DNA from: Portulaca oleracea
Taxonomy: Eukaryota > Streptophyta > Magnoliopsida > Caryophyllales > Portulacaceae
DNA: 64,000 nt
Assembly: GCA_029582165.1 (NCBI GenBank)
Contig: CM055868.1
Span: 11,452,001 to 11,516,000, forward strand
Reading direction: 5' to 3'
How positions within the stretch are numbered: the stretch's first letter is position 1; each line of letters starts with the position of its first letter. Under the pieces are notes generated by a model, which saw only the letters and a list, made by a program, of their open reading frames with translations, was not told the origin of the DNA and did no database searches. A program made the position numbers and the translations under genes. Below, in pieces: positions 27,708 through 49,341 of the stretch.

Positions 27708-27831
27708 TGTAGACACTGGGATTTGCACCAATATAATCCCGACTCATCAGAGCATTGAGGGCCGAATGCGTTTTTGGGCCAATATAGCAAGCAATACAAA
27801 AACAGAATAGGAGCGGCCCACTAGCTGAGAC

Positions 27832-28002
27832 AAAACCCGCACGGGTTTTAAACAGCAGAGACGGCCCATAACCAAGACCAGCCCAAGGCGCGCCCCGGTC
27901 CATGTTAGAAAACCCGCGCGGGTTTTCTTGTGCCTAAGCGCGTCGTTTTGCGTCCACGTCAGTGATCCGTGCCGATGGATTTGAAAACCCACGCGGGGTT
28001 TA
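27832..28002. repeat. palindrome cluster in U3 of the 5' LTR
   Basis: Copies are at 27832-27849 (GCAC centre), 27909-27926 (perfect AAAACCCGCGCGGGTTTT) and 27984-28002 (variant), with starts 77 and 75 bp apart. GGCCCA motifs lie between them. Confidence 0.95.
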
Positions 28003-28168
28003 TAATTGATGATCCGGCGCCAAAATTTGTTTTGATCATCAATCCCATGATATTAGCACCATGTGGGTTGACCCTCTTGACTTGATTATGTGATTTTCAT
28101 GGATTAGGGGGCATGATCATGGGGATGTGTCCCCCTCCATTTCCCTCCTAAACCTCACCTCCTCCACC

Positions 28169-28176
28169 TATAAATA
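28169..28176 (+). promoter_or_regulatory. TATA box of the Tat 5' LTR
   Basis: TATAAATA in a pyrimidine-rich context 'ccacctataaatacctctcc', followed by a long C/T/A-rich leader of the kind seen downstream of plant start sites. The 3' LTR has the same box at 44923-44930. Confidence 0.75.
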
Positions 28177-29026
28177 CCTCTCCATTCTTCCATTCATTTC
28201 ACCAACAACTCTAAAAAACCACCTCTATTATTCTCATTTCATCCATTATCACTCCCACCAACTATCATCATAATCCTACCTACACTCTCCTAAACTCTCT
28301 CTATTATCAAGCATTCTCATCAACTAACACCATTATTCTACCCTCATCTCATCAACAATCATCCCTTATTCTACCGAATTTCCATTACTCCCTTAAAATT
28401 CCCTCATCCATAATCACTCTCTAAACCTCTCCTAATCACTTTTGTCACATCCATATCATCACCCTAATACCATTTCCTAAACCACTTCTATCTTTCCATC
28501 AAAGTCCAAAGGCAAGGCAAAGTCAAGGATTTCAAACCGGCACATTCGGGCTCCTAAATCAAAAGAGGTTAGATTCATTGCTTTCTTATTGTCATTGTTT
28601 AAATCATGTAATTCGTACTTTAATTCCATTACTTGTGCATATTTTGTAAACTAAAAACCTCATTTTATATTGCATGATGATGAATATAATTTCGTGAAAT
28701 TAATTAAACTTCTCCCCGCTCTTTTTCATTTTAATGTCGATTTTAGTAGAGTCTGTTTTCTAACAGGCGAATTCGAAAGTTCTTATAATTCTCGAATTCG
28801 TAACCTTACACCCGAACTTAGAATCCGGTTTCGTAGACCGGAGTTATTTTTATTGTTTTTACGGTTTGTCGGTTTCCTAAAATCGGCTGGCGACTCTTAA
28901 TTCTTTTATAACCCGTTTAATTATTTTAAACATCCGAATTTACACCAAAATATTTAAAAATGGTTTAATATTTTCTACACACTTATCCAAGGTTAAAACC
29001 GAGAGAAAATGGGCAAGAAGTTGATA

Positions 29027-29122
29027 AAAACCCCCGCGGGTTTTATCAATTTTAACCTATCTTCTCTGGCCCACAAAAGCGCACGGTCCGGCCCATGGAG
29101 TATTACAACCCGCGTGGGTTTT
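29027..29122. repeat. palindrome pair in the downstream part of the 5' LTR
   Basis: 29027-29044 (centre CCGC) and 29105-29122 (one arm mutated to ACAACCC), 78 bp apart, with two GGCCCA motifs between them. Confidence 0.9.
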
Positions 29123-29396
29123 AATCCTCTATGGCGGCCCGTTTGCCTTCTGTTGGGCCTGGATCTGGTATTTGGGCCAATATTGAATTACTTTTAAAGT
29201 ATTTCGGTGTAATTTCGAATGTTTAAATAATAAAAACGGATTTATAAATAAATAAAGTTTCATCACCCCGAAAATGAATTTCATAAAGTAAAAATATCCT
29301 TATTTAAGGATTAAGCAACCTTAGTCGGCTCCCGATCACTTAAGTAGCGCATCCGAGAACAATTTCCCCGAACGGGAATTTTCAGGGTCCTACAGA

Positions 29397-29416
29397 TTGG
29401 CGACTCCACTGGGGAC
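29397..29416 (+). other. putative primer-binding site of the Tat element
   Basis: TTGGCGACTCCACTGGGGAC begins two bases after the LTR. It is the kind of sequence found at this place in many plant Tat-type elements. I do not assign the tRNA with certainty. Confidence 0.7.
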
Positions 29417-30689
29417 TTAAACTTAAAAAAGAGGGTAAGACTTGAAAAAATCGAATTAATTTGAAATTGTAAAAAGGAGAAGTTGATTATTTTCACGATT
29501 TTATAATTTTTTTAGGCATCCTTTGCATACCGGGCCACTAATCGCGTCTTTTGACACGTTAGCACAAAGGTGACGGTTAAGTAATACCTAGGTGATTCCC
29601 TCGAGAGCGGGTAGGCCACTACTTGTGTGATGCACTCTACATCGCCAAGCATTTGGTCTCTCCTCTCCCCACGTTACACTCCAAGGGCTTCCTTGAAGTT
29701 CTTTGAGCAATATCTCGCGCTCCTTACTTAACGGTATGGGGTACGGAGAAGAAGACGTGCGGTAGACCATGTAATCCAACCATAGAAAAATCCATGGACA
29801 CAGAACCTTGGTTTAGGATATCCCCTCATGTCGTATGCTATAAGCTATGTGCTACCCCTTCCCCTTTTGTTTTTCTTTCGTTTTAGAGTTGACTCTAGTT
29901 TAGAGGTTTTGTTCTAGTCCATATAAATTTCATTGGGTTGAGAAAATGATTATTCATTAATTAAAATAATTAACCTAAAAAGCATCATGGTTAGCCCAAG
30001 TGGAAGGGTCCATTTATGCTTGAAGGGTGATTATTTTAATTAATAAAAATTGACTCGCCTTTGATGATATTATATGGCCCTTTACAAAATTCTCCTAACG
30101 AAGGTCCCAAAATTAATTAAAAGTCCAACAAAGTTAATGGATACTATTTTAGATTGCATAATAGTCACTAGGCTTGAGTAAATTAATTCGTCGATTTAAT
30201 TAATAAATCCATCACATGTATGGCCGGCCCGTTGATAGGCCCAACCATATTGGATTCTTCAATTAAGCCCATGAATTAATTATAACTCGCTTATTGTTGT
30301 CTTTATTCAATCCTTTATAATATCCGTTTCCCTCGACTAAAAAAAAAAATTCAATAAAAAGAAAGAGAAAAGTTGGGTCGTCGGTTTTGTCAAGTATTAT
30401 TCTAGTCCACATAATAGTCATTATGGCTTGAGCTGTCTGAATTGTTAGGCCGAGTTACGGATTCTCCTTAAAACGGTCGGCCAGTAGATTAGGCCCATCC
30501 GAATTGAGAAACACTGACTTGAGCCTATCAATTTACGACCCGCTCGCTGTGTATGACTTTGTGCGGCCCTTTATAATGCTTCGTCCATAGGTCCATATAG
30601 AGTTAGGTCATGCACTCCCAAAAAGTGGGTGAGTCTCTTGTGTCAGCATAAATGTGTCGAGTTAGTAGGATCATATAGGTCTTTAGGGC
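29417..30689 (+). other. Tat leader, non-coding
   Basis: 1.3 kb between the PBS and gag. No credible ORF. A phrase 'agtc.acataatagtcactaggcttgag' recurs in varied form near 30150 and 30400, suggesting degenerate internal duplication. Confidence 0.6.
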
Positions 30690-31871
30690 ATGCATGCATC
30701 GGGTAGTATGTGTCAGAGTATGTCTTTGAGTGTTCTAACTTTGAATTTCCATGTAGGCATCATTGGTGATCGACTCCGAGCCCGCATTCGAGATCCACGA
30801 ACTGGTCGTTTGATCCCAAACCCGCATTACGATCCATCTGCAACTAGCGACAGCGCCATGCCCGGAGAGCAATTCGAAGAGATCCCGGTCCAAAGCGCCG
30901 AAGCCAACATCACGAAGCATTTGGACGAACTCTACACCAAGATGCAGGGTCTGGTCTTTGCTAATTCCCTGGAGCAGGAACAGAAGATGGGCAAAAGGCT
31001 AAATGAACAACAACAGGTGATGGATGGCATGCTGCAGGCCATCACTAAGATCAACACTAAGTTAGGGTTGAATGCTGAGGAGGATGGCGAGGAAATATAG
31101 GGATATGAATCTGAACCTGAAATCATCAAGGTATCCCCAAATTCTGGAGAAACAGGGATATCTAAGACTAAGGTTAATACACCTGAAGTGGAAAAACCTA
31201 CGAGGGACCCCGTTGTTAAGGCTCTCGAACAAAAGTTAGAAAACCTCACCAAGGCAATGAGCTCTGTGCCGGCTTTTGCTGACAAGTACTTAGAGGTTCC
31301 ATTGCCTGTTCAACCGACCTTGAAGGTAGCTGACAAGGTTGAAGTGCCAAATATTAGGTTCAAACCTTCTGAGAACCCTATTCATCATGTGGAGGAGCTC
31401 ATGAGGCTGGCACCTTTAAACCGAATTGATACTGACCTATACTCTACCGTCTTCCCATCTACCCTAGATGGAGAAGCAAAGGTATGGTATCATGCTCTGT
31501 TGCCCCAAGTCAAAGCCAATTGGACTGAATTGTTCAAGGCTTTCATCCACCACTATACACGCATCCAGAAGAAACAAGCTACAGTGGATGATCTAACCGC
31601 TATGAAGCAACGAGATGATGAGTCCTTTATGGATTACTTCGAGAGGTGGCACACAAAATTGTCCCACATCAACGAGGAAATTCCTCTCCGTCTGCAGTTA
31701 TCCACCTTCAAGCAAGGACTCAAGAGCAGCCTATCCAAACACTTAGGGTATCATGTCGTCAAAGACTTTGATTATCTGAAAGATATCTGTGTCCAAATAG
31801 AAGCCATGCAGAATGATAAGACAACTTCGCCTGGATGGAAAAGGGTCCAGCTCCAACAGGAGGGCTACTAG
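30690..31871 (+). pseudogene. Tat gag, N-terminal part, with an in-frame TAG
   Basis: Capsid-type gag text, including EVPNIRFKPSENPIHHVEEL, 'STLDGEAKVWYHAL' and 'MKQRDDESFMDYFERW', is typical of the plant retrotransposon gag domain. One frame runs through the region but is cut by a TAG at 31098-31100 that separates the N-terminal coiled-coil-like part from the capsid core. The frame is lost at 31813-31871, where the continuation shifts to the frame used by the zinc-knuckle and protease part. The first codon is uncertain; the open frame begins near 30690. Confidence 0.85.
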
Positions 31872-33873
31872 TGCGGCTAGCCACCCTCCTAAAATCATGG
31901 AGACTAACTCTATCCAGCGCAAAGGGCCTTATGTACCGAAATATGAGACTTATACGCCATTGGACGTTCCTTATTCTCAGGCTCTCGACCGTCTGGTTAA
32001 GAAAGGTATCCTAGTTTTGCCCTTACCAAAGGAAGAACCAGAAATCAAGGGCAGAAATTGGGATTCCAACCAATTTTGCCGCTATCACCGTTGTCGAGGT
32101 TATGACACCGAGAAATGTTGGACTTTAAGGAACAAGATAGAGGATATGATAAGGGCAGGGACGTTGCCAATGCCAAAAGCTGCCAAGAAACCAAACAATC
32201 AAAGTAATCCTATGCCAGAGCATGCAAATGCTATTTTATGTGGGGATTTCAGCTTCGACCCCTCTGCTTTGATTGTAGAAACCGGTCAACCTATCCCCGG
32301 AATAGTTGGGTTCCCCGAAGATCTACTCATTCATGGTATTTGGGACAACGACGAGGATGATGAGCACGAGCATTCCGAAACAGAATGGATGGAGAAAGAT
32401 GAGTCGGATGATGTAGCATTCCTTACTCGGTCTGGCCGTCACAACCATAACAGGAATACTACCATCCCATTAGCTGTTCCTAATCTTGCACCAACGAATG
32501 GCAGTGACAATCAGACCTCTCCTGAAGATCCTCTTCTTTCTCAACTCAAAAAGACTAGGGCTGAGGTTACCATATGGCAACTCATATTCACTTCACATGC
32601 CCATAGGCAGAAGATGTTGGATGCCCTTACAGCACTCACAGTATCACCTGCAACAACTCCTGAAACTATGGTTGCTCATGTGACTACCCCGCAAGAGATG
32701 ATCACTTTTGGGATTGAAGATCTACCTCAAGGAGGAGCGTCTCACAATATAGCCTTATATCTTACAGTACAATGCTCCAACAAAACTATCCCGCTGGTTT
32801 TGGTTGACAATGGGTCAGCTGTAAATGTGTGCCCTTGGAGGACGGCACAAAAGTTAGGAGTACAACAACAACACTTGGCTCAAAACGGTGTCCAACTAAG
32901 GGCATATGACAATTAGCCTCGGAAGTCTGTTGGATCTGTGGTGTTGCCTATTACTACTGGTAGTATCACTCGAAATGTGAAGTTTGTGGTGTTAGAGATT
33001 CCCGCCTCCTTTAATTTGCTACTAGGGAGGCCCTGGCTTCACGAGTGTAATGCTATAGCATCCACCTTACATCAGAAGGTGAAAATGTTGGTTCAAGGAC
33101 AAGTGATCACTATCTCCGGGGAATCCATCAATGCTGTTTTCACTCCTAAACAGTCAACACTCGAGGTGGAGCACAACTCAATGGACGAAGAACTCCACAA
33201 TTTTGAGCTCGTGGCAATGATGAGTAAGGATGAAGCACCCTTTGACTTCGATACCTACTCAAATCCCAAGGTACATGCTATGCTCAAGAAACAAGGACAT
33301 TTCCCGGGAATGCCGTTAGGAAAGAACCCGAAGGATAAAATCCCTCCTGTGTTCAAGACTTTTAAGCAGAAGGGCAGGTTCGGCTTAGGCTATAAGCCCA
33401 CTGAGAAAGAGGCTAGGTTCGCAAAAATGGATATTATTGAACAGAAAAGAATGGACAATCCTCCCACCTTGTTCTAAGTAAATCCCTATCCACTCTCTCT
33501 GAATGGACAATTTATCAAAGAAGGTGATGACTTCCCTTACTACGGGTTTCTTGAACCATTCTATCTCAAGAACAAAGGAGTTCAAGTTGCTGGACTGGAA
33601 GTCTTCAATGATTGCTCCATTAATATGGCTACTATCTTTATTCCCGCTCGGGACAAACAACCTCCATTAGAATGGACTCATCTTGCTGGAAGCAACATCT
33701 TTGGCATGCTGTTTGGACAAGAAGCCATCTCGGAGAAAGCCGAAGCTGATGCTGTTATTGCTGCGCTATCTAACCCAAGCTTTGATCCGAGTCTTATGAT
33801 TGCTGAAGACGGAGAGGTTAAGGCGGTCTCGTGGGTCGACGCTGTGGAGAATAATTTTGCTTTATCTGTATGA
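31872..33873 (+). pseudogene. Tat gag zinc knuckle and protease region with stops
   Basis: In a single frame continuing from the shift: a knuckle-like FCRYHRCRGYDTEKCW (about 32076-32123, with Y where a His is usual), an acidic linker, and an aspartic protease with LVDNGSAVNVCPW (about 32800-32840) and LLLGRPWLH (about 33015). The frame is broken by TAG at 32914-32916, TAA at 33475-33477 and TGA at 33871-33873. The text between the stops continues in the same frame, so these are point nonsense changes rather than gene ends. Confidence 0.85.
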
Positions 33874-33975
33874 GAGTCTGCTCTTAAGGACATAAAGTCA
33901 GGTTTTAGTGGTCTAGAGTCAAGTGAGTCTGGTCTTGAGTCTGCTGGTGATGTATTCCTTTCTGCATTCAATAAA

Positions 33976-36204
33976 ATGAACCTTTCTGCTTACTCTGATT
34001 CTTCTTTCCCCTCTTCCCTGAGCTGCTGCGCCAATAATAATCCGAAATTTAATGAACTCTTAAAAGAATTTTCTAATGAACATGAGCATAAGATGGCGGT
34101 GTTGGAAGACACCATCACCATAAATGTGGGCACAGAAGGACAACCTCGGGAATTGAAGTTAGGAAGCTCGCTCACGGTAGAAGAACGGGTGTCCTTTACA
34201 GAGCTTCTCAAGGAGTTTGTGGACGTATTTGCATGGTCGTATGAAGATATGCCTGGGATTGATAGGGAAATTGCGGAGCATACCATCCTTTTGCTTCCTG
34301 ACGCAAAGCCGGTTCGACAAAAGGCTAGAAGGATCAAACCTGAATGGGCTAAGAAGATTGAGGAAGAAGTGATCAAACAACTTAACGCTAAGTTCATCAA
34401 AGCAGTCCAATATCCCGAATGGATTGCTAACATTGTCCCAGTACCCAAGAAAGATGGGAAGGTGCGCATGTGTGTAGATTTTCGAGACCTTAACAAAGCT
34501 AGTACCAAGGATAGTTTCCTTTTACCTCACATCGATGTATTAGTGGATAACACTTGCGGACACGAGATACTATCCTTTATGGATGGATATGCGGGTTATA
34601 ACCAAATCAAAATGGCGGAAAAAGACATGGAGAAAACCTCATTCACTACGCCATGGGGAACGTACTGTTATGTGGTTATGCCTTTTGGTCTCAAAAATGC
34701 TGGAGCAACATACCAACGGACAGCCAACACCCTACTTCACAATATGATGCATGTAGAAGTAGAGGTTTATGTGGATGACATAATTGTGAAATCAAAAACA
34801 AGGGAAGGACACATTCCTAACCTTCGCAAGTTTTTCCTCCGACTTCGCAAATACAAGATGCGGCTTAATCCAGCAAAGTGCACCTTCGGTGTCACCTCTG
34901 GGAAGCTGCTAGGCTATGTGGTTAGCCAACGCGGCATTGAGGTTGACCCTTCGAAGATAAAGGCCATCCAAGAGTTGCAACCACCTAGAACAGAAAAGGG
35001 GATAAGGGGTTTCCTAGGGCGAGTCCAATACATCAGCAGGTTCATCTCGAAGCTCACCATGACTTGTGAACCTTTGTTCAAGAAACTCAAGAAGGGAAGC
35101 AAGGTAGAATGGGACGATCAATGTCAAGCGGCCTTCGACAAAATCAAGGAATATTTGCAACATCCTCCAGTCCTCATGCCACCAGTACCAGAAGAGCCTC
35201 TACTCCTTTACCTTACTGTAACTAGCTCTGCAATGGGGGCTATGTTAGCTCAGAAGGCCAAAGGTCAAGAGAGCGCCATCTACTACTTGAGCAAGAAATT
35301 CTTGGACTACGAAAGTCGATATGCAAACATAGAGAAAATGGCTCTTGCACTAGTATGGGCTACCAAGAAGCTAAGACATTACATGCTTTCACATACTGTA
35401 TATGTCATAGCTGAGAACAATCCTATCAAATTTATCATGGAACAGCCTACCATTAACAATCGCATTGCTCGATGGGTGGTCATGCTTTCGGAGTTCAACC
35501 TTCTGTACTCGCCTCAGAAATCCATCAAAGGACGGGTTGTTTCGGATTTCCTAGCCGCTTCTCCAACAAAGGAACCTCCAAGCACTCACTTGGAATTCCC
35601 GGATGAGGACGTATTTTTCACTGATGAAATCACATGGGAAATGTATTTCGACGGAGCTTCTAACCAAATAGGATGCGGAATAAGAGTACTGCTGATCTCT
35701 CCAGAAGGGGCACATGTCCTTGTGTCCGTGAAGTTGGACTTTGATGCTACAAACAATGCTGCAGAATATGAAGCATGTATCAGGGGTTTGCAAGCCGCCT
35801 TGGCCTTAGGCATACGCCATGTAAAGGTCTTTGCGGATTCCAACCTCATCATTAATCAGGCTAAAAACACATGGAAGGTCCGGAATGAATGTCTCATGGA
35901 ATATCAACGGAAGCTTTTGGGGCTTGCTGACCAATTTGAGAAAATCAGTTTCCAGTATCTCTCAAGGGATCACAACGAATTAGCTGACGCCTTAGCCAAG
36001 TTGTCTTCAATGATATCCATACCATCAGGTACGCTACAATTACCGGTAGTAGTGGAGCGACAGTCTGAACCGGCATATGTTTGCCACTTGGAAGCACGAG
36101 AGGAAGAAACTGAGGAATGGTTCCATGACATATACAATTTTCTTCGAAAGGAGAATATCCGGCTGAGTTGGATGTTTGAGGACAGCGAGCGGTCAGGTCT
36201 TTAG
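33976..36204 (+). pseudogene. Tat reverse transcriptase, RNase H and second RNase H
   Basis: This is the longest intact frame of the element (742 codons). RT shows VRMCVDFRDLNKAS, FMDGYAGYNQI, MPFGLKNAGATYQR and the catalytic VYVDDIIVKS (about 34768-34797). A first RNase H follows (SAMGAMLAQ...YYLSKKFLDYESRYANIEKMAL). A second, archaeal-type RNase H has YFDGASNQIGCGI, NNAAEYEACIRGL, VFADSNLIINQ and HNELADALAKL. The order RT-RH-aRH is the hallmark of the Tat lineage. The frame ends at TAG 36202-36204 because of a single-base frameshift close by: the expected text resumes in another frame about 10-15 bases earlier. Confidence 0.92.
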
Positions 36205-36263
36205 CAGCACAATACTGCTTAATCCAAGATCGACTCTACAAGAAGTCACCTACGGGTATTAAT

Positions 36264-37361
36264 TTGTTGTGCATTGATGCTAAGAGTGCCAAGGAAATCA
36301 TGACTACTGTACACGGAGGAGAATGCGGTCCCCACATGAATGGACGAATGTTAGCGAAGAAGATTCAGAGGGCTGGTTACTATTGGACCACTATGGAGGC
36401 AGATTGCTTAGAATTCGTTCGAAAATGCCACAAATGCCAAGAATATGCCAACCTACAGCATCAACCCCCGTCATACCTGACTACTTTGACATCTCCGTGG
36501 CCATTCTCGGTATGGGGTATTGACATCATTGACAAGATACACCCAACCGGAACAGGAGGACATGAGTACATATTGGTCGCCATCGACTACTTCACCAAGT
36601 GGGTGGAGGCGGCCTCTTTTGCCAAACTCACATCCAAACACGTGGCCAAATTCATTCTTCAAAACATTATATGTCGATACGGAGTGCCTCATGAGATCAT
36701 TAGTGACAACGGAAGCCACTTTCGGAAGGAGGTGGAAGCTTTGCTCGCCACTTACAAAATTCAGCATCATCGGTCTTCGCCATACCGGCCTCAAGCCAAT
36801 GAAGCTATGGAAGCGGCCAATAAGACGATATCAGGGATTATCAAGAAGATGGTTGTCACTTATAAGGATTGGCCAGACAAATTAGTAATTTCCCTATGGG
36901 GATACCGAACCTCTATACGAACCGCTACGGGGGCAACACCGTATTCCTTGGTATACGGGATGGAAGCAGTCCTACCAATTGAAGTAGCGATCCCTTCGTT
37001 ACGAATAGTGGCCGAGAGTCAGTTGCCAGAAGCAGTATGGGCTAGGGCAAGGTTCGAGGAGTTGATGTTGATGGACGAAAGGCGATTGAGAGCACTACAT
37101 AATGTGCAAGTATACCAAAATAGGATCATTCGAGCTTTTAATAAGAAGGTGAAAAGTCGTTCACTTCAAGCAGGTGATTTGGTGCTTAAGGAGATGAGGG
37201 CAGCTATACAGGATCCAAGGGGAAAATTTGCACCTAATTGGAAGGGTCCTTATATGATTAAGGATATTTTGCCAGGAGGGGCAGCTCGGCTCGCCACCAT
37301 GGATGGAGAAGATATAGTTAAGCCCACGAATTTGGATCAACTAAAGCGATATTACGCTTAA
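36264..37361 (+). pseudogene. Tat integrase
   Basis: 365 codons, open in the frame entered just after the shift near 36190. It shows the HHCC zinc region (H..GPHMNGRMLAKK...CHKCQEYA), the core domain with WGIDIID (first D), IISDNGSHF (second D) and ANEAMEAANKTI (Glu; usually NGQAEAAN, so the surrounding residues are altered), and a C-terminal domain with GDLVLKEMRA...GKFAPNWKGPYMI. It ends TAA at 37359-37361, just before a convergent pair of poly(A)-like signals. The integrase itself looks intact. It is listed as a pseudogene because the polyprotein reading is broken upstream. Confidence 0.9.
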
Positions 37362-37410
37362 TATCACCAAGCAACTGAAAAACTAAATTTTGGACACTTG
37401 GGATATATTT

Positions 37411-37485
37411 AATAAACGCTCATGTACTTAAGGAAAATAAAGTTTACAAGAACACAATCTTTGTGAACAATATTTCTCCTTTATT
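37411..37485. terminator. convergent poly(A)-like signals between gag-pol and antisense gene 1
   Basis: AATAAA at 37411-37416 and AATAAAG at about 37435 point in the sense direction. TTTATT at 37480-37485 is AATAAA for the antisense gene ending at 37596. The motif is short, so support is positional. Confidence 0.45.
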
Positions 37486-37595
37486 AATCGAAAAATGCAA
37501 ATACATTATTTGTAACATAAGAAAATTTAAAAGGCATAATTAAATAAAAGATTATTCTAACAAAGCAGTTTCAGTTCCTTCACTCCATTCATCTT

Positions 37596-39064
37596 CTAAT
37601 CTTGTTTCACCTTCTCTACTTCGCCAGTTGTCTCATGCCCGATCTCCATGTCTCTGGGTCCATTAATCGCTTTCTCTTTGTCCTTGGGCTTATAGGCCCG
37701 CCTGCCTGATTCCTGCATATTAATTCTCGGACCAAGTCTGTCCTTTATTGAGTCTCTCGCGCCAAGACGGTCTTTCACGGAGGTACGAGGACCTCATCTT
37801 TCCTTCACAGGTGCTTGTCTTCGTCTCGCCTCCCCAGCACGGCGAGATTCGATGGCAGCAATCAGCCATCCATGATAACTAGCATCGGCGATGTAAGACA
37901 CATGCATTTTTGGCGGAGATTTGAGAGTTGGTCTTCTTTCCCAATACTTAGGCCATGACTCGATCATCGATCTTCGAAGCATCAGTTGGTCAGGGGTTTC
38001 ACACAGAAGCTCAGTAATGTCCTGCTGGCGGCCCATTTGGCGCTTCACTCGCGCAGGAAAATAAAAGGTCATGTGCGTCAAGCCGCCGAGACACACAAAA
38101 GCATTACGGAAATCATGGGTTATATAATCAGAAATGTACCACCATTCGATCAACCATATGATCTCCCGAGGTTCCTTTAAGAACGCAATCCATTCTGCTA
38201 CAGAGCACAGATCGGTGTACTTTCTCTTTCTTTGACAATAGTTCGCCAACGCCGATGAATTTCGGGGTTCTTCAATAAGGCCTAAATGCTCCATTAACCA
38301 GATCTGTTCACAAATTAGCCAGGGTTAGAAATTGCACACCAATTCTCCCAAACTAAAAAAAAAAAAAAGACAGAAAACCTGCGCGGGTTTTGCAAACAGT
38401 AGGGGCAAAATAAAAAGAGCAAATCAAACAGTGGCAGACCGGATACCTGAAGTAGCAGCGGGCTCCCTCGAAAGTCATGTTCTAGATGTGGATCATCCAA
38501 GCCCATCATGGTTTCCGCTAACATTAGGGGCACGGGATTGTAGCCTCGAGACATGTCGTCAACGATTTGGATTAAATTCGCCAGTCCAGTTCTTTTACCG
38601 CCATGATAAAAACAAAACTCGCCAAGGAGACATAATACGAGCGCTCGCACTCGTATAACAGGACCAAATTCCAAAGTGTGAGGAGATTGAAAATATTCGA
38701 CTATAGTTTGGAAGTGTACCTTTTCGCCAAATATTGCTCTCCCGACGACCCGAGACGAAAGACACAAGAACTCCTTGTATTGCTTGGGAGTGTCCATTGG
38801 TATGGGAGGCGGCGTCGGGCGAGCAAAATGATTTGTCCCTAGAATCGAGGACCATTCCTCCGGGAGCGGACAGAGTTCCTTCCACGCAAAGCGAAAGACA
38901 TGCATTTTTGGATCCCAGAAAGTCTCCGCCGCGTGGAGAAAATCATGGTTGATCCTCACTTGGCGAAGACTCAATAAGCCCGTCAGCTTGTATCTTTCGA
39001 GCTCTTTCTTTTCTTCCTTGGAAAGGGTGCTCATCCAAGTTGCAAGTTTCTTCTCGAAAGCCAT
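37596..39064 (-). CDS. Tat antisense gene 1, DUF7745-like, two exons
   Basis: Two exons: 39064-38447 and 38303-37794, with a GT-AG intron of 143 bp (donor CAG|GTATCC, acceptor GAACAG|ATC). The joined frame is phase 0 and gives about 375 residues. Text such as LTGLLSLRQVRINHDFLHAA, FWDPKMHVFRFAWKELCPLP and, across the junction, LLLQ/IWLMEHLGL resembles plant DUF7745-type proteins known from extra ORFs of retroelements. I know of no established function. A TGA at 37794-37796 may be a nonsense change: the same frame stays open to 37596 with KDRLG-type repeats. A TATA box lies 90 bases upstream of the ATG, and two palindromes lie beyond it. One palindrome lies in the intron. Start chosen at the first ATG after the TATA box. 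Confidence 0.75.
38374..38391. repeat. palindrome inside the intron of antisense gene 1
   Basis: AAAACCTGCGCGGGTTTT, one mismatch from the consensus, inside the 38304-38446 intron. Confidence 0.9.
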
Positions 39065-39153
39065 GAGGAAAGGGGATATTCTTTGCGTTTTGGATATGTG
39101 AAGAAGACTTTGAAGTGATGAAGAGGATTGAGGACTACTTGCATAACATGGGG

Positions 39154-39161
39154 TATTTATA
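39154..39161 (-). promoter_or_regulatory. TATA box of antisense gene 1
   Basis: TATAAATA on the minus strand in the context 'gtgtataaatacccc', 90 bases before the ATG at 39064, with a C/T/A-rich leader between. Confidence 0.7.
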
Positions 39162-39283
39162 CACTTCCATTCAAGCTCAAAATGGAGAAATACAACCAGC
39201 AACGATCACATAGCCGTTGCTCTCCATATCCCATGATTTCAGCCCATCAAGCAACGACTAGTAAAAAAACGGGAAATAAAATC

Positions 39284-39379
39284 AAAACCCGCGCGGGTTT
39301 TAACGTGCATAGGACTGCATTCGCGCTCGCCCAAGCCCAAAGCCCAGGACCTGTTAAGGAGAAAACCCGCGCGGGCTTT
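39284..39379. repeat. palindrome pair upstream of antisense gene 1
   Basis: 39284-39301 (perfect) and 39362-39379 (one change), starts 78 bp apart, 120-220 bases upstream of the minus-strand TATA box. GCCCA motifs recur between them. Confidence 0.95.
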
Positions 39380-39787
39380 CAGGCGACATGGGCCGCCTTT
39401 CCGCAGCTCGGCCCACTCGCTTCTGATTGTAGTTGGGCTCTGGAATTAAATTGGCCCGTTCGTGTGTTTTAGTGTTTTGGATCTTGACCCGATGATGCTC
39501 GGTTCTGAAATTTTCGCTCGAGTTCACTCTGACACTTAAATTTTTGTTTTCTTTTATTTTCTTTTCTTTTTGGGGAAGCGGGATTAAATTGGGATTAATC
39601 CCGTCATGTAGAGAGTCGTTCAATGCATCAATAAAATAAAGCTGTATGTTCACCAAGTCTTGCATATAAAAATATAAAAAAGATGCATAAGAGTCTTGCA
39701 TTAAAAAAAAAGTAGTACAAATTAGCTTCGCAAAAAAAAAAATAATAAAAAAAAAGATGCATAAAGTCTTGCTTGTTTTGGTTTGAT

Positions 39788-42700
39788 CACCACAATGAAC
39801 CCGAATCGCCGCTATCCTCAATCAGATCGGCACCAGCATGAGAAGTCCCACTGTTAAAAGCACCAGCTGTACCAAAATAGGTGTCCCAGGAATAATAGTC
39901 GGAACCAGGTGTTGTCTGCGGTGGCCCAGACAAGGGAACTTCGGAAGGATGCACGCTCGACGGTGATGAAATGGAATGCTCCCGTGAACCAGCTAGCCAT
40001 GAATGGTCAGGAACACGCCACTCAACAGAAGGGGTAGGCCATACAGATCGGGCCAGAATCGGGCCAGCAACCAGAAGAAGTAGATCCTCCTAGCCAAGAG
40101 TGCTGGGGTACATACCACTCTTGCGTATCCACGGGCCATAAAGGACCATTCCAGGAGCCGGCACTGGCCATCCAGCAGAGTAAGAGCCAGAACCAAAGGA
40201 AGAGGCATCGTATGGTGCAGGACGTGAAGTAGCATCATCCGCTAGGGCCTGACCGCCAGGATACCCTACGGATGCACCTGAGTCATGGTCCCTCACCACA
40301 ATCTCGTCGCGGCGGCGACGAGCATCGAAGTTAGAGTGCGGCGGGAGTGAGGCGGTTGGTAGCACTCGATTACGAAGCATCCTCCACCCGATGGAGCGGT
40401 GAGTATCACCACCATACCCAACGCTGTGATGTGACCCCCTTTGCCAGAATGCTCTTCCAGGGATATCTGAGCCATGTCTTCGTTCACAGGTCGACGGCCC
40501 CTCCTACCAGAACCGCTACGATGTGAACCCATAGAATGATGACCTTCGGCCATGATGCCTTTACCACGACCCTCCGGCACAGCTGCTAGAGGAGGACGAG
40601 AAGACCCACCAACCTCCTCCCGTGATCGACCCCGGGAAGAATATTCCCCTGCCGAAGAGCGACGTGGGGGCTCGGTACGAGGAACTCCCACAGTAAAGCG
40701 TCGAGGTGGTTCCCGAGGAACAGACTCAGCATCAGCCTCCATATCAGCACGCCTGGCGGTGTTACCGCGGTATCTGCCTGAGCCCGTAAATGACCGGTTG
40801 ACGTATTTCAACATAGTGCTCCATTCTTTGGTCACTTGCCTGAAGACAGACCATCGTGGCTGAAAGGCAATAAAGACAAAGGTTACACATGCATAATTGG
40901 CACATGAGGTAAAGGGAAGCTACAAAAGATGAGGGATTACCGGCTTCTACTCAAACTCTTGGAGCGCGCGGGCACCGATCGCTAGTCTCAACCTCCAAGA
41001 AACCGCCAATCTTTCTTCCCGCCGGTTGGGCCTCCACCTCAGCAGCCATAGCATAGGGCCCCAACTACAAGACTCTATGGTTAGGAGTCGGTCAAAAGCA
41101 CAACATAAAGAAAAGCGAGAAATACCTATCACTCGGGGCGCTAAACGGCTCAAGTAGCGTTGGAATTCCTCGTTGAAATGCCCTTAAGGAACGTCATGCA
41201 CGAAGTTGTCAAAATCCCGACCTTGAATCCAGTCTCCTAAGACATCCAGATTGATGCGCCAAGGCTCGAACATGTGCTCTGGAGGATCCCGGGGTATAAG
41301 GCCAGGATATCCGCCCAAGATCTCCCTCGTAGCTCTTTCCCCCAGGTACCATATGAAGCCCGAGGGTCCCTCCATCAAGATGCGAAGGCGAGTATCGTGC
41401 TCCACTTGTTGCAAAGGGGTGGGCAACCCACATAAGTCAAACCCCGCCCATGGACGCCAGTTCACGTGGTCCTATGAAAGATAGAGGGTCATTTCAAGAA
41501 TAGAGGCAAAAATAAGATAAAGATGTCAGGCATAAAGAAATACCGGGGTAAGGTCATCCGATTGCACGCGAATATGATCAAGGCTGCCTGCTGGAATTTC
41601 TTCCTCGTATGCCCTCAATGATCCAGCGTTCAATGTTGGGACCGTCCTATTTCTCTTGGAGCGAATGCCCAAGGACAGGATATACTCATATGCCCATGAC
41701 TGCATGATTATAAAGTCAAAAGAAATAGCAAAAGAGCAACAAGGCTACAAAGAGAAGAGTCTCGGGTACGTACCTCGAGCACCTTCCACAAAGAAGGACC
41801 ATACTGAAAGCGGGTATGAGACTCGTGGAGGTAAACGGGGTCGTCATCCAGCGTCAGTCTGACACCGCGACAAAGCCAGAGGAGGAAATTTGCATACGCA
41901 GCCTTGCCCCAATTCAAGTTCTGAACCTCGTTCAAGTCCAGGAGATTCTGGAACCAGGGCAAAGTAATGTTATCTCCCCGATTGGCAAAAAGAGTAGTGG
42001 AAATAACATAAGCCAGGAAGATAAAGCGACGTTGATCTCCAGGCAAATTCTGAAAGTTGGCATCATAGATAGCTGCCTCGAAGTGCGCATAGGCAAGATT
42101 GGACAGACCCTGACCTGGGCCTAAACGCGCCGACACTAGACCCAGCAAGTCCAGAACCATCGGCGGGATCTCAGCCCTAAAGACTATGTGACGCCCACCC
42201 CAAGGAAGACCAGTGATCATAACAAAATCTGTGGGGGTAATTGTCATTTCCCCTACAGGTAGATGGAAGGAGTTGGTCGTGTCCCAAAACCTTTCCGCCA
42301 TAGCGCGACCTATCACGCGAAATGTACGGCCTTTCCAAGCCACCGGGCATTTCCAGAACAAGTCCTGCTGCACTAAGGGTATTGCTAACGAAATCCCCAG
42401 GAATCAAATCAGCTACCTTAAGGAGATCCTTTAGGACGCCGAGAGTTTTCAGATTGTCCTCCTAACGACAAAACAGTGCAAAATTAAAGTCGGGGGCTCA
42501 TACATAGTCTTTCGGGCCCTAGCTGGATCCAGCACCGACACTGGGTCTCACAGCCATGGCCCACAAGACAAAGCAACTGGGAAAAAAGAATCTACTGGCC
42601 CAAATAAGTCGGGCCAGCAGAATTAAAACCCGCACGGGTTTTGCTCATAAATGGGCGCCCATCGTGCTCGATTTCCTTTTGCTTTTGGGGTTTATGATCC

Positions 42701-43178
42701 AGAAAACCCGCACGGGTTTTAACTTCGCAAGTGGGCCCCCCATCTAGGCCCAGTTTCTATTCCCGGGATATGGTCCAGAAAACCCGCGCGGGTTTTCTCT
42801 GTTCAAATGTGCCGTGTGTTTTTATTCCTTTTGGGCCGAATATGCATACAACCTATTTCTTTTTTCTTTGGGTCGAGTGTGGTCCGTTTCTCAAAATGGG
42901 TTGCGAATAAATCATGAGGACATACAAGCATGTTGAAAACAATAAAAATCGACAAGGCATGGAAAATAAATTCGTGCTTGCTCATTTTTCATTATTAAAG
43001 CTAAGCATCAAAAGAGGAGTACCTTGCCATGAGAACGGTAGAACTAAGCATGCTTCCAAGACTGGATAGTGAGATCCGAAGGGTTGGCATTTGCACCCGG
43101 GATGAAATTGCGTCTCGAAGACATCTCATGAGGCCATGCCGCTGCATGAGGAAGAGGAGGATTTCTGCGACGATGCAT
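39788..43178 (-). pseudogene. Tat antisense gene 2, plant mobile domain protein, about six exons
   Basis: Minus-strand exons by splice sites: 43178-43023 (donor CAAG|GTACTC), 42461-41774, 41699-41544, 41471-41126, 41064-40941 and 40859 to about 39788. The core reads TTNSFHLPVGEMTITPTDFV, then ITGLPWGG, exon 3 SWAYEYILSLGIRS and exon 4 GFIWYLGERATREILGGYP, which match the plant mobile domain (PMD, MAIN-like) in order. The last exon is basic, Ser/Arg/Gly-rich and low complexity, ending GDSGSLW. Lesions: TAG in exon 1, a frameshift early in exon 2 (near 42375), TAA in exon 4 (about 41188) and a frameshift near 40400. PMD proteins occur in host genes and as extra ORFs of Tat elements. Host members affect silencing and genome stability. 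Exon 1 is the least certain. Confidence 0.72.
42625..42796. repeat. palindrome cluster in intron 1 of antisense gene 2
   Basis: 42625-42642 and 42703-42720 (both GCAC centres) and 42779-42796 (perfect), starts 78 and 76 bp apart, inside the proposed 43022-42462 intron. GGGCC/GGCCC motifs lie between copies. Confidence 0.93.
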
Positions 43179-43295
43179 TTTCTCAAGAGCTTGAATTATC
43201 TCCAAAAAGCAATTTTCTAGAGAGAGAAAAGAGGAGCTAGGGAGATGATGAGAAGAAGTTGAATGTGTGAATGAAAGAGTTGAATGAGGCTTGGC

Positions 43296-43302
43296 ATTTA
43301 TA
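43296..43302 (-). promoter_or_regulatory. TATA box of antisense gene 2
   Basis: TATAAAT on the minus strand in the context 'ttctataaatgcc', about 120 bases before the first ATG at 43178, followed by a C/T-rich leader. Confidence 0.65.
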
Positions 43303-43512
43303 GAAATGAAAAGTGAATGTGAACTGTTCGTTTTTAGGACCCGCCTCGAGATGCCAAATGCATTTCATTGGTCGAAAATCCAAAGGTCATCCATTTGCCA
43401 CCCAAAGAGGAGACCAAGCTGCGTGGCTATCCCTCGTCCACACGAGGCCTAGGCCCCACCATGATTCCCTTCACGAGGAGAAAAAGAAAAAAAAAAAAGA
43501 AAAATGAAAGCC

Positions 43513-43692
43513 AAAACCCGCGCGGGTTTTGGGTGAGCTATGGGCCGAGTTCTGGCGGCCCAACATTTTGTAGCAGCCCAATGAGGATAACAAAGCCCGC
43601 ACGGGTTTTCTACCAAGAAAAAAAAGAAAGTCAAATTCAAGCGGCCCATGCCGATGTGGCCCAGCAGGAGTCGTAAAACCCGCACGGGTTTT
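43513..43692. repeat. palindrome cluster upstream of antisense gene 2
   Basis: 43513-43530 (perfect), 43592-43609 (one arm change) and 43675-43692 (GCAC centre), starts 79 and 83 bp apart, about 210-390 bases upstream of the minus-strand TATA box. Confidence 0.95.
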
Positions 43693-43819
43693 CTGCCTAC
43701 AAAGAAATTTTTTGGAGCGGCCCAAGTTCAAATAGCCTAAAGAGTCTCCAATATTCAGGTAAAAGAATCTGAACCCATTTGTATGTTCGCGAAAACTAAC
43801 GTCTGTTTTTGCGATGATT

Positions 43820-44400
43820 TCCAGGTTGCCACATAAAGGAGCGCCATCATCTACTTGCCGCATAAAAGAGCACCACCATCCGGTCGCCACCAAAAGGGAT
43901 CATCCAGCAGGTTGCCGCATAAAAGAGCACCACCATCCAGTCGCCGCTAAACGGGACCATCCAGCGGGTTGTCGCATAAAAGAGAACCATCACCCGGTCG
44001 CCGCCAAAAAGGGACCATCTATCATCAGGTTGCCATACAAAAGAGCACCAACAGCGACAGTCGTCAAACGGTTGCCACCTAAAGGCCTCCATCGATGTCG
44101 TCAATGACAGTCATCCAACGGTTGCCACCTAAAGGCCACCCACGATGTCGTCAGCATCAGTCGTCCAATGGTTACCATCTAAAGGTTACCGATGACCTCT
44201 TCTTCAACAGCAGCAGTCGTCCAGACGGATTCCACCTAAAGGTCTCCAACGGCATCTACAGCAGCAGTCGTCTAGACGGATTCCACCTAAAGGTCTCCAA
44301 CGACGTCTACAGCAGTAGTCGTCCAAACGGTCGCCACTTAAAGGTTACCAACGACGTCATCAGCCGGTTGCCATATGAAAAGAGCACCGCCAGCATCGGG
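43820..44400 (+). repeat. tandem repeats in the Tat 3' untranslated region
   Basis: The first subarray has a 57-bp period ('gcataaaagag' at about 43860, 43917 and 43974). A second has about 51-56-bp units with 'cagtcgtc.a.acgg.t.ccacctaaaggt' (44100-44350). Tandem repeats just before the 3' LTR are known in Tat/Ogre elements and can seed satellites. Confidence 0.85.
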
Positions 44401-44446
44401 ACAGCCATCAAGTCTACTTTGACCTTCGTCCTATTCGGACTCGATC

Positions 44447-44457
44447 AAAGTGGGGGC
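44447..44457 (+). other. polypurine tract of the Tat element
   Basis: AAAGTGGGGGC four bases before the 3' LTR, the usual place for plus-strand priming. Confidence 0.8.
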
Positions 44458-44461
44458 TCTC

Positions 44462-46146
44462 TGTAGACACCGGGATTTGCACCAACATAATCCCGACTCC
44501 TCAGAGCATTGAGGGCCGAATGCGTTTTTGGGCCAATATAGCAAGCAATACAAAAACAGAACAGGAGCGGCCCACTAGCTGAGACAAAACCCGCACGGGT
44601 TTTAAACAGCAGAGACGGCCCAGAACCAAGACCAGCCCAAGGCGCGCCCCGGTCCATGTTAGAAAACCCGCGTGGGTTTTCTTGTGCCTAAGCGCGTCGT
44701 TTTACATCCACATCAGTGATCCGTGCCGATGGATTTGAAAACCCACGCGGGGTTTATAATTGATGATCCGGCGCCAAAATTTGTTTTGATCATCAATCCC
44801 ATGATATTAGCACCATGTGGGTTGACCCTCTTGACTTGATTATGTGATTTGCATGGATTAGGGGGCATGATCATGGGGATGTGTCCCCCTCCATTTCCCT
44901 CCTAAACCTCACCTCCTCCACCTATAAATACCTCTCCATTCTTCCATTCATTTCACCAACAACTCTCAAAAACCACCTCTATTATTCTCATTTCATCCAT
45001 TATCACTCCCACCAACTATCATCATAATCCTACCTACACTCTCCTAAACTCTCTCTATTATCAAGCATTCTCATCAACTAACACCATTATTCTACCCTCA
45101 TCTCATCAACAATCATCCCTTATTCTACCGAATTTCCATCACTCCCTTAAAATTCCCTCATCCATAATCACTCTCTAAACCTCTCCTAATCACTTTTGTC
45201 ACATCCATATCATCACCCTAATACCATTTCCTAAACCACTTCTATCTTTCCATCAAACTCCAAAGGCAAGGCAAAGTCAAGAATTTCAAACCGGCACATT
45301 CGGGCTCCTAAATCAAAAGAGGTTCGATTCATTGCTTTCTTATTGTCATTGTTTAAATCATGTAATTCGTACTTTAATTCCATTACTTGTGCATATTTTG
45401 TAAACTAAAAACCTCATTTTATATTGCATGATGATGAATATAATTTCGTGAAATTAATTAAACTTCTACCCGCTCTTTTTCATTTTAATGTCGATTTTAG
45501 TAGAGTCTGTTTTCTAACAGGCGAATTCGAGAGTTCTTATAATTCTCGAATTCGTAACCTTACCCCCAAACTTAGAATCGGGTTTCGTAGACCGGAGTTA
45601 TTTTATTGTTTTTACGGTTTGTCGGTTTCCTTAAATCGGCTGGCGACTCTTAATTCTTTTATAACCCGTTTAATTATTTTAAACATCCGAATTTACACCA
45701 AAATATTTAAAAATGGTTTAATATTTTTCACACACTTATCCAAGGTTAAAACCGAGAGAAAATGGGCAAGAAGTTGATAAAAACCCCCGCGGCTTTTATC
45801 AATTTTAACCCATCTTCTCTGGCCCACAAAAGCGCACGATCCGGCCCATGGAGTATTAAAACCCGCGCGGGTTTTAATTCTCTATGGCGGCCCGTTTGCC
45901 TTCTGTTGGGCCTGGATCTGGTATTTGGGCCAATATTGAATTATTTTTAAAGTATTTCGGTGTAATTTCGAATGGTTAAATAATAAAACGGATTTATAAA
46001 TAAATAAAGTTTCATCACCCCGAAAATGAATTTCATAAAGTAAAAATATCCTTATTTAAGGATTAAGCAACCTTAGTCGGCTCCCGATCACTTAAGTAGC
46101 GCATCCGAGAACAATTTCCCCGAACGAGAATTTTCCGGGTCCTACA
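44462..46146 (+). repeat. Tat 3' LTR
   Basis: TGTAGACACCGGG...GGGTCCTACA, followed by the CCCAT duplication. Palindromes are at 44586-44603, 44663-44680, 44738-44756, 45780-45797 and 45858-45875, matching the five of the 5' LTR. Several differences between the LTRs fall inside palindromes, mostly C/T or G/A at CpG. Confidence 0.95.
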
Positions 46147-46151
46147 CCCAT

Positions 46152-47172
46152 ATCTCCCGGAAGATCGAGCTTGTAAGCATTGTCATTGACCTTCTCCAAC
46201 ATTTTTAACGGTCCTTCACTCCTCGGAATGAGTTTGTTTTTTCTCCGCGAAGGAAACCATTTCTTCCTCAAATGGAGCCAAACTAAGTCCCCGGGTTTGA
46301 AAGTGATGCTTTAGCAATACTTGTTGACTCGGGACTTGTAGAACTCATTAGTCCTCTTGATCTTCTTCTGGATCTGTCGATGTAGCTTTTGAATCTCAGC
46401 GGCCTTCTCACTTGCCTAAAAACTCGCTCGTGCCTCCAAAGGAAGAGGAAGGAGATCTATGGGAGTGATAGGATTCACCCTGTAACAAGTATCGAAAGGC
46501 GAGCGTCCCGTGGCGAAAGAAGGGGCCTGATTGTAAGCGAACTCGGCATGACACAACTTGGCATCCCAATCCCGTAAACTTTTGCCTACAAGGCCCCGAA
46601 GCAAGGTAGTGAGGGTCTTGTTGGTCACCTCAGTTTGACCATCCGTTTGAGGTGATGCGACATGCTGAAAGGAGCTTCCTTCCAAGGAGCTTCCATAGCG
46701 ACCTCCCAAAATGACTCATGAACTTCGTATCACGATCCGAAACAATGGTCCTTGGAACACCGTGCAACCTCACTATCTCCCAGAAGAAGAGATTAGCGAT
46801 GTGGGTGGCGTCGTCGGTTTTCTCACAAGCGACGAAGTGTGCCATCTTGGAGAAATGGCCCACAACGACGAGGAATGAATCCTTCCCACACACGGTTTGG
46901 GGAAGAGCCACGATAAAGTCCATGCTCAAATCTTCCCACGGGCCATTTAGGACGGGGAGAGGAGTATAAAGCCCTTGGTGGAACTGGCTTTTGGCATGAT
47001 GGCACGTAATACACTTGGAGATCACATCGTGCACATCACCTCCCATCCTTGGCCAATAAAAATGATCCTTTAGCATGTCAAGGGTCTTGTTGATGCCGAA
47101 ATGGCCGGCAAGACCACCTCCGTGAACCTCTCGCACCAACAACTTCCTCAATGGACACTTGGGCACACACAA
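46152..47172 (-). pseudogene. minus-strand gypsy integrase
   Basis: Minus-strand text shows HFGINKTLDMLKDHFYWPRM with CITCHHAK (zinc region), MDFIVALPQ (first D), TIVSDRDTKFMSHFW-like (second D) and SPQTDGQTEVTNKTL (Glu). A frameshift near 46700 moves the reading from one frame to another. The last part (NDNAYKLDLPG at about 46190-46155) runs into the Tat insertion and continues at 27707. Confidence 0.85.
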
Positions 47173-49341
47173 CTTGTTCCCTTGAAAAGGAACCCATCTT
47201 GAAGTACGTAGAAACCATCACCATCGTCAAGATGAAGCTTGAAATCCTCATCCTCCTTGTACAATTCCCGCATGTGTTGAAACCTAAGACCCCGCGCTTC
47301 AACCGCCGATAGTAGAGCATACATCCGGGATAATGCATCGGCTACTATGTTGACGTTCCCCTTCTTGTGTTTAGCCCCAAACTTAAAGCTTTGAAGATAC
47401 TCCACCCACTTTGCGTGACGCTTGTTAAGCTTGTGTTGGCCGTTTAAATACTTGAGAGCCTCGTGGTCGGAATGAAGCACGAACTGGTTAGGCCTCAAGT
47501 AGTGGGACCAATGGTCAAGAGCACGAACAAGGGCATAGAACTCCTTGTCGTAGGTAGAGTAATTCTTCCTTAACCCACTGAGCTTCTCGCTAAAGTAAGC
47601 GATGGGGTGTTGATTTTGCATGAGGACGGCCCCAATGCCCAGTCCGCTAGCGTCGCAATCCACCTCGAAGACTTGTGAGAAGTCCGTGAGGGCAAGCACC
47701 AGAGCTTTACAAAGTCGAGCCTTAAGCTTCTGAAAGGCCCCTTGGGCCGCTCGGGTCCACTCACAGGTGCCCTTCTTCATACACTCGGTGATAGGGGCGG
47801 TGAGGGTGTTAAACCCTTTGATGAACCGGCGGTAGAACGAAGCAAGGTCGTGGAAGCTTCTCACCTCCGTGATACTAGAAAGAGAAGGCCAAGAGCGGAT
47901 GGCTTCCACTTTCGAGGGGTCCATGGAAATACCTCGGTCGGAAATGATGTACCCAAGAAATGTGACTTGGGGAGTGCAAAATTCGCACTTCTCAAGTTTT
48001 CCAAAGATCTTTTGTTGTCGTAGAACCCGGAAAACATATTACAAATGTGAAAGATGCTTCGCTTCACTCTTGGAATAAACAAGGATGTCATCAAAATAAA
48101 CCACTACGAATTTGCCGATGAACGACCTCAAAACTTTGTTCCTGAGTTGCCTGAACGTGCTAGGGGCATTTGAGAGCCTGAATGGCATGATAAGCCACTC
48201 GTACAACCCACCCTTAGTTTTTGAAAGTCGTCTTCGATTCATCTCCTTCCCTCATACGAATATGATGATATCCACTCCGAAGGACGATCTTTTAAATGAC
48301 GCACGCACCATGCAACTCGTCAAGCATATCGTCGAGCCTCGATATGGGGTACCGATACTTGATAGTGATGTTGTTGATAGTGCGACTGTCTACACACATC
48401 TGGTAGGTGCCATATTTCTCGGGAACCAGGTGGGTCGAGACGAAATAAGGGCTTATACTCTCCCGAATGAAGCCCCTAGAAACGAGTTCGTCCACTTGCC
48501 GTTGCAGCTTCTTGGTTTCCAACGGGTTGCTTCGGTAAGCCGCTTTGTTGGGGAGTGGTGCTCCTAACATAAGGTTGATCTGGTGCTCGATGCCTCGAAT
48601 AGGTGGAAAACCCGGTGGTAGGTCATTGGGAAAGACGTCTCCGAACTTGGCAATGAGAGTGGCGACAAGAGGGTGAAGGGGTTTCTCTACCTCACTTTTG
48701 TTTGCTTCTAAGAGGAGTAAGGCAAAAACGACCTTCCCCTTACGTAGAGCTCGCTCAACCCGTGTTTCGCTCATGTGTTTGGGCTCCTCACTTCCCACCC
48801 CGGGTTTTGGAGATATGATTTCATGTGGAGCTAACGGAAGTAGCTTAACCCTCTTGCCCCTATGGGTGAAAGTATAGGTGTTTTTCAACCCGTTGTGCAC
48901 AGTTTGCTTGTTGAATTGCCAAGGACGTCCCAACAATATATGGCAAGCACTCATAGGAACAACATCATAAACAATAGAATCATCATAGTTAGTATCAAAA
49001 GACAAATTGACTAGGACTTGTTTGGGTACCTTAATGCCATCTTGATCATTGAGCCACTTGAGAGAATAGGGTCGAGGATGCGATAATAATGGCATATTAA
49101 GCTTCTCGAACATATATATAGATGCGACATTGGTGCAGTTTCCTCCGTCAATGATAAGGTTGCAAACGTTGCCTCCTACGAAACACCGAGATTGAAAGAT
49201 CTTCTCTCGTTGGGCCTTGTCGAGACTCGAGAGGGTTTCATGAGTATGCAAAACCCGTCTCAAGACAAGAGCGTCACCATGCACATGTGGTGTGAGGGTG
49301 TTATCCTCATCATCACTCCCAATCTCTTCGATGACAACCAC
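47173..49341 (-). pseudogene. minus-strand gypsy protease, reverse transcriptase and RNase H
   Basis: In the minus direction: protease with NLIIDGGNCTNVAS (about 49165), an ILLGRPWQF block, the RT start (RGFIRESISPYF, QMCVDSRTINN), a break near 48290-48240, RT with [16 protein letters not shown] and catalytic [14 protein letters not shown] (about 48110-48070), a further break near 48000, then RNase H with [31 protein letters not shown] and [12 protein letters not shown] is normal for this lineage, not a mutation. At least two frame changes and several substitutions show decay. Confidence 0.87.

Follow-up and report, generated by a model that had tools for sequence, protein, structure and literature searches.

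A window of 64,000 nucleotides of the Portulaca oleracea genome (CM055868.1, positions 11,452,001 to 11,516,000) contains a Tat-type Ty3/Gypsy long terminal repeat (LTR) retrotransposon in which an 18-bp palindrome, referred to here as the tag, recurs in non-coding DNA around every promoter of the element. Dispersed tags change together within a copy, and related families of elements in the same genome, from which all sequence results derive, bear different tags. From these comparisons it appears somewhat probable that the tags are sites for a protein encoded by the antisense strand of the element itself (most likely the DUF7745/PMD product of antisense gene 1, less likely the PMD product of antisense gene 2), which would gather at the promoters and keep them open.

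Tags surround the three promoters of the element

A scan of the 64 kb allowing up to 3 mismatches gave exactly 19 matches to the palindrome, compared with none in 100 dinucleotide shuffles. Because ten of the sites sit in the two LTRs, the 19 represent 14 distinct places. Tags flank all three promoters of the element (LTR, gene 1 and gene 2); those upstream lie 123 to 390 bp from the three TATA boxes, and more are found downstream, in the gene-1 intron, in gene 2 and at the 3' end of the LTR. The features concerned, in window coordinates, are:

27708-46146: Tat-type Ty3/Gypsy element; sense strand, gag-pol; antisense strand, two genes between pol and the 3' LTR
27708-29394, plus strand: 5' LTR, with TG...CA ends, identified by blastn to the 3' LTR
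27832-28001: three tags (27832, 27909, 27984), 168-337 bp upstream of the LTR TATA box
28169-28174, plus strand: LTR TATA box
29027-29122: two tags (29027, 29105) near the LTR 3' end
30690-37361, plus strand: gag-pol span (gag, reverse transcriptase (RT), two RNase H domains and integrase by Pfam), tag-free
37794-39064, minus strand: antisense gene 1; exon 1 39064-38447, intron 38446-38304 (GT-AG), exon 2 38303-37797 plus stop
38374-38391: one tag, inside the gene-1 intron
39156-39161, minus strand: gene-1 TATA box
39284-39379: two tags (39284, 39362), 123-218 bp upstream of the gene-1 TATA box
40293-43178, minus strand: antisense gene 2 (PMD); ATG at 43178, PMD exon open reading frame (ORF) 42403-41711, likely C-terminal ORF 40919-40293
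42625-42796: three tags (42625, 42703, 42779) between gene-2 exon 1 and the PMD exon
43297-43302, minus strand: gene-2 TATA box
43513-43692: three tags (43513, 43592, 43675), 211-390 bp upstream of the gene-2 TATA box
44462-46146, plus strand: 3' LTR, holding tags 44586, 44663, 44738, 45780 and 45858

None of the 19 tags falls in the 7797 bp of the gag-pol span and gene-1 exons, and none lies within the PMD exon (41711-42403). A preliminary description of this DNA had listed 19 palindromes, placed them in the LTRs, upstream of both antisense TATA boxes and in the introns of both antisense genes, and seen none in coding parts. The scan recovered precisely those 19 sites and the same placement, the gene-2 intron being the interval between exon 1 and the PMD exon.

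Within clusters the tags of the window are spaced 75 to 83 bp apart and, across 54 further loci (L032, which lies inside L006, is counted twice), 44 of the 68 spacings shorter than 150 bp measure 77 or 78 bp. The spacers between tags are nearly without similarity (6 of 56 pairwise comparisons with P < 0.05, 2.8 expected) and, as they are not visibly related, the clusters are not a plain tandem repeat. A tandem-repeat origin of these clusters was rejected, since the 56 comparisons revealed no clear common unit. One turn of DNA round a nucleosome takes approximately 80 bp; a link between this and the 77- to 78-bp spacing is a guess only. A second short word, GGCCCA (20 copies) or TGGGCC (12 copies), crowds the non-coding parts of the element (both LTRs included) and occurs 7 and 7 times in the rest of the window. 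We take it to be a plant site II motif.

Tag centres change together within a copy

The window copy represents subfamily 1A of family 1. Its sister subfamilies, 1B and 1C, retain the arms AAAACC/GGTTTT and differ in the centre. In a 1B copy (L130 with L127) the centre is CGCCTA or CGCCTG at all seven sites, and in a second (L132 with L118) it ends in TA or TG at 6/6; in a 1C copy (L131 with L128) it ends in GG at all nine sites, three of them in the LTR, and in a second (L133 with L122) at five of six, the sixth, AAGCAT, resembling a chance match (each pair of loci was taken as a single copy on account of distance, with blastn to the gene-2 region as well for L130 and L131). None of the 19 sites in the window copy has a 1B- or 1C-type centre. 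Neither the 1B nor the 1C centres are self-complementary, and the full palindrome belongs to the window's subfamily only.

For five copies (the window, L006, L008, one 1B and one 1C), the mean distance between centres at different places in one copy was 1.32 (296 comparisons), against 2.44 (149 comparisons) between subfamilies at the same place. Independently evolving sites would give the reverse order. Centres were extracted automatically, with L006:6116 and L008:8566 included and two chance-like matches (window 43792 and one in L008) kept. When subfamily labels were permuted within place for 31 sites from three copies (window, 1B and 1C), the observed value was never reached in 5000 trials (P = 0.0002). 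The simplest cause of dispersed sites changing together in unrelated surroundings would be a trans-acting factor private to the lineage. A DUF7745 profile search yielded 15 further gene-1 promoters, 13 of which carry one or two tags of the family-1 kind.

More distant families carry a one-directional tag

A protein search with gene 1 gave a single match, P0003 (44% identical over 54% of gene 1), which is encoded in the window's own genome (100%) and opened the way to a second group of gene-1 genes. The gene-1 exon of these families is 46 to 48% identical to that of the window. Twenty promoters of P0003-related genes were examined, of 150 scored places. The palindrome is in none of the 20 (best matches 3 to 7 mismatches), and AAATCCGCG is present in 19, at three to eight copies each, with 105 copies running along gene 1 and none in reverse. 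Sorted by the tag itself, nine promoters form family 3 (L065-L071, L076 and L077), in which the base after AAATCCGCG is C in 46 of 47 copies, and nine form family 2 (L061-L064, L072-L074, L079 and L080), in which it is T or A in 52 of 55; in L078 the next base is mixed. A 17-base family-3 word found 15 places per strand in a genome search, and its reversed control none.

Tags of this kind were also counted in two 8-kb stretches, L081 (14 copies of AAATCCGCG, all forward) and L082 (26 forward and 2 reverse), where shuffles gave about 0.06. They are situated on the side of the gene-1 promoter and intron and, in L081, on that of the PMD gene as well. Listed coding parts contain 0 of the 14 in L081 (2124 bp) and 0 of the 28 in L082 (633 bp). 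The element in the window has no copy of AAATCCGCG, and its integrase is 65% identical to that of L103 (with L081) and 73% identical to that of L104 (with L082). Near position 560 in 17 of the 20 promoters L061-L080, the TATA box and a tag copy merge (CTATAAAATC), and in families 2 and 3 (L081, L082) GGCCCA/TGGGCC sometimes abuts the tag (GGCCCAAATCCGCG).

Occurrence and conservation of the palindrome in the genome

The genome (1.13 Gb) has 2544 exact copies of the palindrome and none of its reversed control. Twenty exact sites were hand-picked from 34 not otherwise examined, of 50 places listed, all on one contig. All 20 are in this element family (69 to 97% identity), 16 of them in LTRs, two in the gene-1 promoter, one in the gene-2 intron and one in the gene-2 promoter, and every one has a partner tag 76 to 81 bp away. 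All three gene-1 tags are kept at ≤ 4 mismatches in 27 of 29 gene-1 relatives; among more diverged gene-1 loci the figure is 17 of 20 (18 of 20 at ≤ 5 mismatches), with L046 and L058 keeping one each. At least one gene-2 intron tag (≤ 3 mismatches) was found in 10/10 PMD copies of 80 to 84% identity. A variant with both arms altered, AAAGCCCGCGCGGGCTTT, accounts for 22 of 199 sites and is found chiefly at the distal position in the gene-1 promoter (L012-L060).

Across the window and 49 relatives, the majority-base share was 0.94 to 0.96 in the palindromes, 0.943 in exon 1 and 0.86 to 0.92 in other non-coding DNA. In the 20 sampled loci, where the test is weak because old copies decay freely once inserted, non-CpG columns of the partner tags were 0.92 identical to the window and those of the flank 0.859, the tags being ahead in 18 of 20 loci. 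The CpG centre of the tags decays like other CpGs (0.776 versus 0.779).

The element and its antisense genes

The two LTRs (1687 and 1685 bp) are 97.9% identical (blastn, 5' versus 3'), and CCCAT on either flank of the element is a 5-bp target-site duplication. Pfam matches to Gag, RT, RNase H and integrase are arranged in Gypsy order, and RT_RNaseH plus RVT_3 match within a single ORF, a dual RNase H being a feature named for Tat elements in a passage of PMC9289625. Just upstream of the RT ORF (32938-33474) is a weak match to G-patch (E = 0.0056, under the cut-off). Tandem arrays of 57-bp and 51-bp units occupy 43855-44358, between the gene-2 promoter and the 3' LTR; their copy numbers differ in the relative L006, and they resemble the arrays described for Retand elements. 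Adjoining the 3' LTR on the minus strand (46630-47924) are RNase H and integrase pieces of a different Gypsy-like element, and a fragment at 4982-5392 has an ion channel domain match.

Gene 1 (ATG at 39064) encodes a predicted 375-residue DUF7745/PMD-like protein. Exon 1 scores 25.2 bits against DUF7745, just below the 26-bit cut-off (P0003 scores 26.6), and exon 2 has a weak match to the end of PMD. The PMD exon of gene 2 is a clear PMD match (E = 8.7e-15) with a weak, sub-threshold match to DUF1985 (E = 0.024; 15 bits, cut-off 35.1); the exon model of this gene remains incomplete, as its first-exon frame runs into a stop ahead of the candidate splice donor. The Pfam scan of the window's antisense ORFs listed no match to DUF287, and the six antisense ORFs scanned gave none to TRP28 (PF04195), only DUF7745, PMD and the sub-threshold DUF1985. 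PDB sequence searches with the PMD exon, the gene-1 exon and a 15-row alignment returned nothing at E ≤ 1, and no paper on DUF7745 was found in the literature searched.

Proposed role of the tags

The favoured reading is that an antisense-encoded protein acts like VANC of VANDAL transposons. Each site would combine a family-dependent part with one that varies little, which is mostly AAAACCCGC in family 1 and is AAATCCGCG in families 2 and 3. Through two or three sites per promoter and further sites downstream, the protein would accumulate at all three promoters, that of the LTR and the two antisense ones, and would keep them open by autoregulation, by countering silencing, as VANC does for VANDAL, or by both. 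Each family may act mainly on its own copies, since the sites of each family change together. A further proposal, put forward tentatively, is that this forms a self-recognition code of Tat elements, in which a putative antisense DUF7745/PMD protein reads the constant and family-specific parts of the site at every promoter belonging to its family, the protein and its site diverging in step.

Self-recognition had been suggested in the preliminary description, partly on the argument that a palindrome suits a homodimeric protein. The idea gains from the occurrence of non-coding tags at all promoters, from their differences between families and from their joint change. The homodimer argument in its original form finds no support, as it fits only the window's subfamily: the 1B and 1C centres lack self-complementarity and the 105 forward copies in families 2 and 3 have no reverse counterpart. 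The comparison of coding with non-coding DNA in relatives, which had also been proposed, gave for AAATCCGCG zero counts in the listed coding parts of L081 and L082; the palindrome itself is absent from the promoters of distant families.

Several observations weigh against a self-encoded reader. With the CpG centre included, tag identity in old copies is barely above flank (0.872 versus 0.850). One of the 20 family 2/3 promoters (L075) has neither tag, nor have two of the 15 found by profile (L115 and L124, which are old, 53 and 55% identical over approximately 80 residues). Families 2 and 3 lack the 77- to 78-bp spacing seen in family 1. The constant part also differs in orientation: in 1B and 1C it points the same way as gag-pol, in families 2 and 3 the same way as gene 1, so that a single constant half-site gives no explanation. 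Families 2 and 3 were defined by the tag, and identity to P0003 fails to separate them cleanly: the T/A kind is represented by all of the closest four promoters (96 to 100%) and by L079 (80%), the C kind by all of L065-L068 (80 to 82%), and both kinds by the five promoters of 87 to 88%. Structure prediction for gene-1 exon 1 (15 sequences) gave a mean pLDDT of 41, too low to reveal a DNA-binding fold. Finally, the AAA-N-CCGC core common to all families might just as well be recognized by a single host factor.

When repeated words were sought blindly in the L115 and L124 promoters, none had more than two copies. L115 matches 12 places, including itself, and these two promoters may have other tags or have lost them.

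Alternative explanations

One alternative is that a plant transcription factor preferring a CCGCG-like core recognizes the tags, which the element keeps to drive its promoters. CAMTA-type CGCG boxes and E2F-like sites would be candidates for such a core. Tags 123 to 390 bp upstream of three TATA boxes, the shared AAA-N-CCGC and the crowding of GGCCCA/TGGGCC in the same spacers are all compatible with a host factor. However, one such factor offers no reason for centres to change jointly within a copy and leaves the differing base after AAATCCGCG between groups in one nucleus unaccounted for, and tags are also present in introns and near the LTR 3' end; we regard it as unlikely. Less likely still is a spread without function, through tandem duplication, template switching during reverse transcription or patchy conversion, with spacers diverging later. 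VANC targets spread by tandem repeat formation, according to a passage of PMC5735166; a family-2 stretch has a dense, irregularly spaced run of tags, and other repeat arrays adjoin the 3' LTR. Against such spread, unrelated spacers accompany a constant spacing of 75 to 83 bp, the coding parts examined are tag-free, the tag is conserved above the spacers, and 105/105 copies of AAATCCGCG in family 2/3 promoters share one orientation.

The tags might instead be targets through which a host repressor or small-RNA pathway tracks and silences each family. RNA-directed DNA methylation (RdDM) and VANC target the same non-coding regions in VANDAL21 (in a passage of PMC10398659), and the host PMD proteins MAIN and MAIL1 silence transposons (in a passage of PMC7156037). 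We nevertheless think this very improbable, as loss of tags would then benefit the element, yet they persist in number and change together. The smallest probability is given to a structural signal, the palindrome forming a DNA cruciform or an RNA hairpin. The perfect 18-bp palindrome of 1A and the alteration of both arms in AAAGCCCGCGCGGGCTTT would fit such a signal; the centres in 1B and 1C lack self-complementarity, the upstream sites precede TATA boxes, and a hairpin or cruciform as a general explanation is disfavoured because the AAATCCGCG tag in families 2 and 3 has no inverted-repeat symmetry.

If the reading of the tags as sites for an antisense-encoded protein is true, LTR retrotransposons possess a VANC-like anti-silencing or activation system, the DUF7745/PMD fold is a DNA reader with changeable specificity, and sequence-specific counter-silencing is not confined to Mu-like DNA transposons. 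Natural protein and tag pairs in one genome would then show how specificity shifts. The family-specific tags provide a direct test, namely which tag the antisense proteins of each family bind.

Comparison with known systems

No report of the palindromic tag was found in the literature searched, as judged by titles and opened passages. Retand elements, according to passages of PMC11963269, are likewise Ty3/Gypsy elements in which a long region separating pol from the 3' LTR carries antisense genes and, in many cases, tandem arrays. In all but two Retand clusters that region has an antisense TRP28 ORF (PF04195), whereas the antisense ORFs of the window match DUF7745 and PMD. The same passages call the function of the TRP28 proteins unknown and suggest a regulatory DNA-binding role; in the text seen, 'palindrom' occurs only within a cited title.

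The host proteins MAIN and MAIL1 resemble the present candidates in that PMD proteins are tied to a promoter motif and to control of transposons (passages of PMC7156037 and PMC9899485). They differ in being encoded by host genes rather than by an element, and the DOWN promoter motif, in its MORC1 version CATGCAGTTT, is dissimilar to the tag. Whether the MAIN/MAIL1 complex contacts chromatin is stated there to be unknown.

The closest parallel is VANC. In the portions of PMC5735166 and PMC10398659 consulted, VANC proteins bind short motifs in the non-coding DNA of their own VANDAL family and remove silent marks, the motifs in these Arabidopsis Mu-like elements being YAGTATTAY for VANC21 and AGTTGTCC/AC for VANC6; VANC targets evolve along with their proteins, which carry DUF1985 (PMC5735166). 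VANDAL is a DNA transposon and the element described here an LTR retrotransposon with its candidate genes antisense to gag-pol; its family-1 tag is an inverted repeat at 77- to 78-bp spacing. The likeness to VANC is one of anatomy and evolution rather than of demonstrated membership. In both, a short motif occurs in many copies in the non-coding DNA of the element and in none of the coding parts examined, and related families in one genome bear different motifs that evolve together. The candidate proteins of the window's element match PMD and DUF7745, and the gene-2 exon has its weak, sub-threshold match to DUF1985.

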